64,000 bases of DNA from Pseudomonas laurentiana (lineage in GTDB: Bacteria > Pseudomonadota > Gammaproteobacteria > Pseudomonadales > Pseudomonadaceae), in the NCBI RefSeq assembly GCF_014648275.1, contig NZ_BMQU01000007.1:62001-126000 (forward strand), given 5' to 3'. Numbering within the stretch: position 1 is the first letter of the stretch; each line of letters opens with the position of its first letter. Both the position numbers and the translations under genes were made by a program. The notes under the pieces were generated by a model that saw only the letters and a list, made by a program, of their open reading frames with translations, had not been told where the DNA came from and ran no database searches. This document shows, one piece after another, positions 49,567 to 50,692 of this stretch.

Positions 49567-49622
49567 CGGCGCCCCCACCGATACCTTCCCAGGCAAGCCC
49601 GCCCTGCAGAATCATGCGCTCG

Positions 49623-49943
49623 CTACGTTGACGTAGGCGCCGGCCCTGCCGACGACACCGGCATCCCATCCAACACGCCTTCAACCAATGCCTTGGCCAT
49701 CTCCGCCGAATGCAACACCGACCACAACATCCCACGCCCGGTTTCTTCGGCATGGTGCTGACAGTAGTAGTCGGTAACGTCACGGATACCGCGCAGCAAT
49801 AGGGTCGCATGAACCAGCGCGTCTTCGGCCTGGATACCGCTGCAAACGCTGAACATCGGAGGATGACTGGACTGGCAGGTGCCAAAAGGGATGGCGGCAG
49901 TGGTGCCAAGGGCGGGAGGTGGATCGGGGACGATTTTTTTCAT
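49623..49943 (-). CDS. DUF3077-family protein of pseudomonads
   Basis: 106 aa, start MKKIVPDPPPALGTTAAI with strong SD AGGAG 7-11 nt upstream. The proline-rich N-terminus and FSVCSGIQAEDALVHATLLL, then RGIRDVTDYYC, match the short Pseudomonas proteins called DUF3077/DUF6124. They are predicted alpha-helical and have no known function. The open frame extends upstream through the structured leader at 50002-50076, but that extension is not conserved in frame in the second copy of the leader, so the short start is preferred. A decayed paralogue lies at 50371-50436. Confidence 0.72.
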   Translation of the reverse strand: MKKIVPDPPPALGTTAAIPFGTCQSSHPPMFSVCSGIQAEDALVHATLLLRGIRDVTDYYCQHHAEETGRGMLWSVLHSAEMAKALVEGVLDGMPVSSAGPAPTST

Positions 49944-50001
49944 GGTGCACTCCTGTACCTGATGAAGGAGCTGCCATCCGATCTTTCTCACGAGATAGGG
50001 T

Positions 50002-50076
50002 GGCAGCCGTACGCGGGGTGAGAAACCGAGGATACAGGAGCTCGGCCAGACCGAAGTCTGCCCGCGCACGGCTACC
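50002..50076 (-). ncRNA. Structured leader element, copy 1 (predicted three-way junction RNA)
   Basis: On the minus strand a 16-bp stem forms between GGTAGCCGTGCGCGGG (5') and CCCGCGTACGGCTGCC (3') with two G-U wobbles and no mismatch. Inside it are hairpin CAGAC-TTCG-GTCTG (UUCG tetraloop) and hairpin CCGAG-10 nt-CTCGG, with junction strand TTTCTCAC. On the plus strand the wobbles would be A-C mismatches, so minus-strand transcription is favoured, the same strand as the DUF3077 gene that starts 58 nt downstream. I do not recognise a named RNA family. cis-regulatory leader or small RNA are both possible. Confidence 0.6.
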
Positions 50077-50200
50077 ATGACATAACGCCATAAAGGGTTG
50101 CGCCCTGTATCTGACTGGCGGGTTCTCACGCCCGATCACTGGATTTTCAGTGACAGGTCGAAGCTAATACCGAGACATACACAGGACAAGCACCCCAAGG

Positions 50201-50239
50201 CGACAGCGCTCGTAGGATAGTTCCTAAAACCTAGAATTA
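50201..50239 (-). promoter_or_regulatory. Conserved 39-nt upstream motif, copy 1
   Basis: 34 of 39 positions match the copy at 50654-50692. On the minus strand it contains CTAGG, then the dyad TAGGA-ACTA-TCCTA, then CGAGCGCTGTCG. It lies 124 nt upstream of the structured leader. It is a candidate promoter/operator of the DUF3077 unit; no standard sigma-70 boxes are clear. Confidence 0.45.
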
Positions 50240-50300
50240 CAGCAGTGCGATCAACAAGGTCCGGGCAAATCGTTGGCCCGCCAAATTTTCGCGCAGTCCC

Positions 50301-50338
50301 GTGGGAGCCAGGCTTGCCTGCGATGCAGGCGCCGCGAA
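50301..50338 (+). repeat. REP element
   Basis: GTGGGAGCCAGGCTTGCCTG then CGATGCAGGCGCCGCGAA, nearly identical to 49528-49566. It stands downstream of the decayed DUF3077 remnant, just as the other copy stands downstream of the intact gene. Confidence 0.75.
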
Positions 50339-50370
50339 CTGACTGACACCCCTCTCATACCTCCCCATCG

Positions 50371-50436
50371 CTATGGTGAGGCAGACGCCAGCCCTGCCGA
50401 TGAAACCGACCTCACTTCCAGTGCGCTCTCAACCGT
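50371..50436 (-). pseudogene. Remnant of a second DUF3077 gene (C-terminal 21 codons)
   Basis: Minus-strand translation TVESALEVRSVSSAGLASAS-P-stop aligns with the C-terminus of the intact gene, VEGVLDGMPVSSAGPAPTST-stop, with about 10 of 20 identities and no gap. The start codon, SD and first about 85 codons are missing: 33 nt upstream the sequence already belongs to the second structured leader. An internal deletion of a duplicated gene is the simplest explanation. Confidence 0.6.
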
Positions 50437-50469
50437 GAACGGACGGAATCACTTTCACAAGATTAAGGT

Positions 50470-50543
50470 GGCAGCCATGCGCGGGGTGAGAAACCGGGAG
50501 TTTGAAAACCGGCCAGACATGAGTCTGCCCGCGCACAGCCGCC
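50470..50543 (-). ncRNA. Structured leader element, copy 2 (predicted three-way junction RNA)
   Basis: Same fold as 50002-50076: outer stem GGCGGCTGTGCGCGGG with CCCGCGCATGGCTGCC (16 pairs, three G-U), hairpin CAGAC-TCAT-GTCTG, hairpin CCGG-TTTTCAAACTC-CCGG, and the same junction strand TTTCTCAC. Relative to copy 1, five stem pairs change yet all still pair, and loops vary freely. Total length differs by 1 nt, so a common reading frame is not kept. It leads into the gene remnant at 50371-50436. Confidence 0.6.
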
Positions 50544-50653
50544 ATAACTTCACTGATGCACGTAAGGTCCTCGGTTTCGCACACCCGACCGCCGATTACG
50601 CACCAATTGAACGAAAGTAGTCTCACACCTTCCCCCGGACAATCTTTCAAGTT

Positions 50654-50692
50654 CGACAGCGCTCGTAGGACAGCTCCTAGCACCTAGAGTTA
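50654..50692 (-). promoter_or_regulatory. Conserved 39-nt upstream motif, copy 2
   Basis: Minus strand: CTAGG, dyad TAGGA-GCTG-TCCTA, CGAGCGCTGTCG; 34/39 identical to copy 1 at 50201-50239. The dyad arms are invariant while the 4-nt centre varies. It lies 110 nt upstream of structured leader copy 2. Confidence 0.45.

Follow-up and report, generated by a model that had tools for sequence, protein, structure and literature searches.

A duplicated C4 antisense RNA in the chromosome of Pseudomonas laurentiana and its predicted control of a DUF3077 gene

What are the two similar structured elements that lie beside a DUF3077 gene in Pseudomonas laurentiana, and what would they do there? Both are found in the window, by which we mean the whole stretch of 64,000 nt of DNA analysed here. 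A sequence-only reading had described them, at 50002-50076 (copy 1) and 50470-50543 (copy 2), as elements of the minus strand that fold alike, and this description holds. The minus-strand fold reaches -46.2 kcal/mol (z -6.66) in copy 1 and -44.0 kcal/mol (z -5.73) in copy 2, none of 200 dinucleotide shuffles being as stable in either case, and the minimum-energy structures contain the helices that had been listed, namely an outer stem of 16 bp, a CAGAC/GTCTG hairpin, and a second GC hairpin. The choice of strand is borne out by the weaker plus-strand folds (-35.8 kcal/mol for copy 1 and -34.4 kcal/mol for copy 2), and the five outer-stem positions at which the copies differ while their pairing is kept are seen directly in the sequence. 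Likewise, copy 1, when taken to end at 50002, does lie 58 nt ahead of the start codon of the DUF3077 gene (49941-49943).

The same reading knew of no named family for these elements. Here it was wrong, since both are recognized as the Rfam C4 antisense RNA (RF01695), whose covariance model scores 79.2 bits on copy 1 and 73.9 bits on copy 2, against a gathering cut-off of 45. This match, an outcome that the reading itself had named as refuting, also rules out an unnamed RNA family. The model extends the copies to 49996-50082 and 50464-50549, respectively, both on the minus strand, so that their location stands but their extent has to be drawn slightly longer, with an outer stem of 17 bp. The junction strand TTTCTCAC, which had been called invariant, turns out to be a variable stretch, common to these two alone among the 26 C4s of the genome. 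A plain REP was considered as an explanation of the elements and rejected; a REP-like repeat does occur downstream of both units. The model of isrK (RF01394) finds a weak match in the copy 1 unit (28.8 bits, under its gathering cut-off of 50).

The 26 C4s that score above the cut-off in this genome show the covariation expected of homologues of a structured RNA. Fourteen of the 27 base pairs are changed on both sides at least once, 99.1% of the cells are paired versus at most 42.4% when the pairing is slid, and the covariation score of 0.390, versus 0.207 in shuffles, is reached by none of 500 shuffles. The genome also has 14 DUF3077 genes; 12 of them are preceded, on their own strand, by a C4 no more than about 300 nt away, and no C4 was found upstream of the other two. 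In two of these own-genome units (L022 and L029), a short leader ORF has a stop codon overlapping the DUF3077 start (ATGA), which suggests translational coupling.

Copy 1 is a complete C4 circuit. Read along the minus strand, on which all of its features lie, the order is palindrome, likely promoter, a1b1 region, a1, C4, b2, a2, and the ATG of the DUF3077 gene at 49943. The gene (49623-49943, including the stop codon) encodes a protein of 106 aa that begins with MKKIVPDPP and matches PF11275 with 27.2 bits (cut-off 21). The hairpin-2 loop of the C4 contains the a' core CTCCTGTA (50033-50040), a perfect complement of the a2 target TACAGGAG (49950-49957) that lies over the Shine-Dalgarno sequence of the gene, whereas b', the junction strand given above (50018-50025), is a perfect complement of the b2 target GTGAGAAA (49984-49991), located 4 nt past the C4. 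Each of these matches is 8 nt long and exact, and the a'/a2 duplex comprises 11 bp, with a predicted energy of -18.0 kcal/mol. The sequence-only reading had overlooked this relation, in which both the loop and the junction strand run antisense to the region of the gene's own ribosome site. Upstream of the C4 lies a c4-a1b1-like region (50115-50167; RF03163, 43.3 bits, E 2e-9, just below the cut-off of 46.7), where b1, GTGAGAA (50123-50129), is a second, 7-nt exact match to b'; just past this region, a1 GATACAGG (50104-50111) is a second, 8-nt exact match to a'. Further upstream, a likely sigma-70 promoter (50161-50189), picked out by eye, would consist of TTGTCC (50184-50189) and TAGCTT (50161-50166), separated by 17 nt, and the palindrome TAGGAACTATCCTA (50213-50226), with the half-site bases of TAGGA-N4-TCCTA, may be a regulator site. 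The neighbouring genes in the window are ftsX, a sigma factor gene taken as rpoH, a dicarboxylate symporter gene, and a DHFR gene, none of which is a phage gene. Elsewhere in the window, Rfam recognizes the anti-ponA RNA asponA (RF02812) at 476-769 on the minus strand, with 184.5 bits.

We give a probability of about 0.85 to the reading that this locus is a chromosomal C4 antisense unit, in which the C4, cut from the leader, pairs with a2 and b2 and keeps DUF3077 off. From the anatomy described above we infer transcription, processing, and translational repression as follows. One minus-strand transcript would start from the promoter near 50160-50190 and continue through a1b1 and the C4 into the DUF3077 gene. 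The C4 would then be excised from this transcript, as it is by RNase P in P1 (PMC5320573). Its targets lie in the leader of that mRNA, where the loop a' would pair with a2 and the junction b' with b2. The pairing at a2 would mask the Shine-Dalgarno sequence and silence the gene, and the a1b1 copy upstream may offer a second binding place, either by titrating the C4 or by promoting early termination.

The matching between C4s and targets was measured as the longest exact complement of the a' loop or the b' junction, with a threshold of 7 nt, in cognate pairs versus all other pairings. Whole-region duplex energies had been tried as a cognate test and proved weak, with the own target ranking first in just 4 of 26 cases; the exact-run measure was adopted once this result was known, and was then kept unchanged on three further sets. 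In the own genome, b'/b2 reached the threshold in 18 of 26 cognate versus 24 of 650 mismatched pairings, and a'/a2 in 13 versus 39, with corresponding figures of 17 versus 49 for b1 and 12 versus 49 for a1; none of 20000 permutations reached the observed sum for b2 or a2, and no permutation did so for b1 or a1. The next set comes from other genomes of the genus, at loci picked for a high score of either C4 or DUF3077, and comprises 41 C4s distinct in loop and junction, of 57 matches. Here the threshold was reached by b2 in 38 loci, b1 in 40, a2 in 24, and a1 in 22, versus noncognate rates of 9.5, 10.7, 5.4, and 5.0%, respectively (0 of 10000 permutations). A protein-selected set of 66 distinct loci was taken from 80 DUF3077 loci of named Pseudomonas genomes, which are the best 80 of 252 relatives, chosen by KIVPDP-type protein patterns. 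It gave 65 matches for b2, 66 for b1, 48 for a2, and 32 for a1 (noncognate 17.7, 22.3, 6.2, and 8.4%; 0 of 5000 permutations). Finally, the 35 C4s of G010, a single-contig genome picked for its C4 richness, gave 33, 34, 24, and 19 in the same order (noncognate 6.8, 9.9, 5.8, and 5.9%; 0 of 5000 permutations). In all four sets, a C4 is far more likely to match its own target than the target of another C4, with the reservation that the permutations overstate independence, because related loci inherit both partners.

Of the 48 a2 matches in the protein-selected set, 45 begin no further than +52, which places them within the leader or just at it, and the remaining three lie beyond +52, inside the gene; in the other three sets, no counted a2 match begins beyond +52. 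The a2 pairing stays below the 7-nt exact-run threshold in 13 of 26, 17 of 41, 18 of 66, and 11 of 35 loci (own, other-genome, protein-selected, and G010 sets, respectively), and eight of the 26 own C4s, including copy 2, have no 7-nt b2 match. The specificity of a C4 for its own target is not absolute. Among the 14 own loci where a2 and b2 both reach at least 6 nt, the own leader outranks every other target in 10. Some cross matches occur as well, including one of 9 nt between the loop of copy 1 and the leader at C9:95709.

Structurally, copy 2 is a C4, but it is an orphan, its gene being mostly deleted. The idea that the elements serve the DUF3077 gene as a leader, a small RNA, or both is supported, but copy 1 alone leads a gene. 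On the minus strand, copy 2 keeps the promoter region, the palindrome TAGGAGCTGTCCTA (50666-50679, a match in the TAGGA-N4-TCCTA scan), and the C4 itself. Its a1b1 has decayed, with the b1 region placed at 50569-50584 by alignment with copy 1 and P. defluvii, and b2 and a2 have been lost. What is left of a second DUF3077 gene downstream of it is a 3' remnant at 50368-50434, with 75% identity to 49620-49686. With the target region deleted, the longest complements between copy 2 and its own downstream stretch are just 4 and 4 nt. The duplication exceeds the RNA, since it includes the promoter region (D2, 77% over 56 nt), the C4, and a 3' segment of the gene (D1, 75% over 67 nt), as well as the REP-like repeat downstream (D3, 91% over 47 nt). 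The duplicates are spaced by about 468 nt between the C4s, 748 nt between the gene ends, and 773 nt between the downstream repeats. These spacings fit a tandem duplication of about 770 nt, after which one copy would have lost roughly 300 nt; copy 2 would be the leftover of this duplication, with the gene gone and the C4 staying.

The same locus in P. defluvii WCHP16 contains one unit with the same neighbours (sigma factor and symporter each with 99% identity) and a DUF3077 protein 99% identical to that of the window. Its loop reads CTCCAAACTC, versus CTCCTGTATC in the window, and its a1 GCGAGTTT (8 nt) and Shine-Dalgarno region differ from those of the window and fit its own loop. That is, a', a1, and a2 all differ between the two genomes and still match one another within each. 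The duplexes between loop and leader reach -18.0 kcal/mol in the window and -17.3 kcal/mol in P. defluvii for the own pairs, versus -6.9 and -5.9 kcal/mol crosswise. The orphan loop of copy 2 gives -10.4 kcal/mol with the P. defluvii leader and -3.7 kcal/mol with that of the window, so that, on these predicted energies, the specificity of copy 2 leans to the P. defluvii type, whereas copy 1 has another. The two genomes represent a same-locus pair in which the specificity differs and the protein is nearly unchanged. A search of 1.5 kb on either side of the sigma-factor match found no C4 in a further 15 genomes of the genus.

Across the genus, RF01695 was found in 110 of 119 genomes, in 109 of them above the cut-off, the C4s of each genome being counted among at most 33 scored candidates. 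Of 229 genomes drawn from the class, the own one included, at least 12 have RF01695, the other 11 carrying 1-4 copies among the 18 candidates scored for each. DUF3077 occurs in 93 of the 119 genomes of the genus and in one of the 229, namely the own genome. A C4 at E<=0.001 accompanies 27 of the 30 high-scoring DUF3077 loci of the genus survey, and of the remaining three, one has a weak C4 match (23.2 bits) and two have none. In all 80 kept loci of the protein-based selection, the C4 lies 43-57 nt ahead of the protein match.

Other genes take the place of DUF3077 behind the C4 in other genomes: DUF6124 (PF19619), Bro-N (PF02498), an unnamed protein of about 52 aa, and an unnamed 89-aa protein. 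The protein of about 52 aa is found in 9 of the 41 other-genome loci, five of which have DUF3077 behind it, within 1.2 kb. In G010, a C4 lies within 500 nt upstream of 27 of the 29 DUF6124 genes, the other two having none within that distance, and the 35 C4s are a median of 95 kb apart. A Bro-N antirepressor-like gene starts 49-50 nt after the C4 in seven genomes (L049, L051, L052, L053, L055, L056, and L059), all with one common C4 loop and junction, and with a broken frame in L055. One viral contig (L192, 749-1241) combines a C4 with a DUF6124 gene, and their neighbours are genes for phage tail (Phage_tail_S, GpR) and lysis (muramidase). Outside the genus, 11 C4 loci reach 7 nt in 9 cases for b2 and 11 for b1, counted without a mismatched control, and the genes downstream of them include Bro-N and Phage_pRha. 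This fits a descent of the C4/small-protein units from a phage antirepressor circuit, which we consider a plausible origin.

As for the protein itself, the predicted fold of DUF3077 has two long helices and short strands (mean pLDDT 86.3, pTM 0.68), and gave no Foldseek match at E<=0.001 in the PDB or in viral models. Searched by sequence, it found nothing in the PDB up to E 1 or in PADLOC up to E 0.1 and just weak matches in PHROG (E about 0.05), and no match to the window's DUF3077 was found in phage and plasmid records up to E 0.01.

The palindrome TAGGA-N4-TCCTA, with at least 9 of its 10 half-site bases, is found upstream of the C4 in 44 of the 80 DUF3077 loci, versus 0.3 expected from shuffles, and in 9 of 26 own and 1 of 41 other-genome loci, mostly 125-175 nt ahead of the C4. 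Lying ahead of the likely promoter, it is possibly the site of a shared regulator.

The C4 may work mainly by transcription attenuation, in the manner of the P4 CI RNA with seqA/seqC, where binding to a1b1 causes early termination and the block of translation is secondary. A terminator-like hairpin with a T run lies between a1b1 and the C4 in 30 of the 41 other-genome loci (L041-L100), versus 2.1 expected from shuffles, b1 is matched at least as well as b2 (in 40 of 41, 66 of 66, and 34 of 35 loci), and a P4 parallel is drawn for IsrK in a passage of PMC4825925. However, this terminator is absent at both window copies. It occurs in 7 of the 26 loci of the own genome, where 1.6 would be expected, and in just 12 of the 66 in the DUF3077 set, against an expectation of 4.8. 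Nor would attenuation need a2 to lie at the Shine-Dalgarno region, as it does in most matched loci. Attenuation through a1b1 is thus a serious rival or addition to the translational block, even if we doubt that it is the main mode of action.

The target could also lie elsewhere, with C4s acting mainly in trans on host or incoming-phage mRNAs and the downstream gene as a bystander. Such a role was offered for the C4-like sRNAs of Acinetobacter baumannii in passages of Weiss 2016 (PMC5320573), and orphan C4s exist. In one of these (C3:4013-4099 of the own genome, G000), 11 nt of the a' loop exactly match the leader at C13:162912, which belongs to another unit and may be a target in trans; this is the sole cross match of at least 10 nt among the 650 mismatched pairings. 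In every set, b2 ties most C4s to the leader next to them, so that the evident target is the own gene; trans roles would be additional, and a mainly trans action is improbable. Least credible of all is a reading of the elements as dispersed repeats of DNA or as relics of decaying prophages, without present RNA function. Their many dispersed copies, the several orphans and decayed units, and the 15 genomes with no C4 near the sigma-factor gene would suit such relics, but the compensatory base pairs, the cognate matching in four sets, the near-fixed distance to the gene, and the window neighbours, which are not phage genes, speak against them. The silencing of DUF3077 by its own C4 is the reading that we retain. 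A wider extension of it is far more speculative: Pseudomonas chromosomes might carry self-silencing cassettes of a C4 and a small protein as one large family, whose members would have mostly independent specificities and evolve like phage heteroimmunity. Loop and ribosome site would change together, a cognate C4, even an orphan, would make its cell immune to a cassette that enters, and a naive cell would express the small protein upon such entry.

The C4 antisense RNA of phages P1 and P7 was reportedly described by Citron and Schuster in 1990. It is the RNA of their immI system that silences the antirepressor, according to passages of several papers (PMC5320573, PMC8201110, PMC8546580, PMC12197685), one of which adds its processing by RNase P to about 77 nt and a GGW motif (PMC5320573). 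Both C4 and c4-a1b1 are among the RNA motifs of Weinberg 2010, as listed in part of PMC2864571, and the C4 prediction by Weinberg in Pseudomonadales is mentioned in a passage of Weiss 2016 (PMC5320573). In Burkholderia cenocepacia, C4 and isrK are treated as one transcription unit in an excerpt of PMC4603805. Among open-licence PMC papers, none was found that ties C4 to DUF3077 or DUF6124, although papers using other gene names would escape such a search, and none on DUF6124; DUF3077 appears in part of a paper on furfural tolerance. The C4 family is known, and the genus-wide set of cis-matched C4/small-protein units is undescribed as far as the literature was searched. These units offer a regulatory logic to two almost unstudied protein families, DUF3077 and DUF6124, and represent a natural set of many RNA regulator-target pairs.

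Among known systems, the C4 of P1 and P7 shares with the window unit the three-stem RNA, the a' and b' loops, the targets at the ribosome site of the downstream gene, an upstream region that is a1b1 in the phages and a1b1-like here, and a specificity set by a few loop bases, in so far as excerpts on P1/P7 describe it. Unlike in the phages, the gene predicted to be silenced is DUF3077 instead of icd/ant, there are many copies per chromosome, and no phage genes lie beside the unit; moreover, a2 lies here on the Shine-Dalgarno sequence and b2 just after the C4, whereas a passage of PMC5320573 puts b' at the ribosome site. The isrK-orf45-anrP operon of Salmonella Gifsy-1, as far as it is described in sections of PMC4825925, is similar in its isrK-like leader with a processed RNA downstream and in the ATGA overlap between leader ORF and gene seen in two own-genome units, but copy 1 of the window has neither such a leader ORF nor an antirepressor, and its isrK match is weak. 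The CI RNA of satellite phage P4, in a passage of the same paper, is likewise an antisense RNA that is excised from a leader and flanked by two targets, one on either side; it acts by termination, and it is likened here by description, not by sequence or structure. Finally, the chromosomal C4-like Group 1 sRNAs of A. baumannii, described in passages of Weiss 2016 (PMC5320573), share the chromosomal expansion and the variable a' loop. There, expression and apparent processing were shown and the targets left open, whereas in Pseudomonas the cis targets are mostly readable from the sequence alone. To a C4 known from a few phages, Pseudomonas would add many uncharacterised small proteins, among them DUF3077, DUF6124, and some Bro-N proteins, each with an antisense RNA of its own in front.
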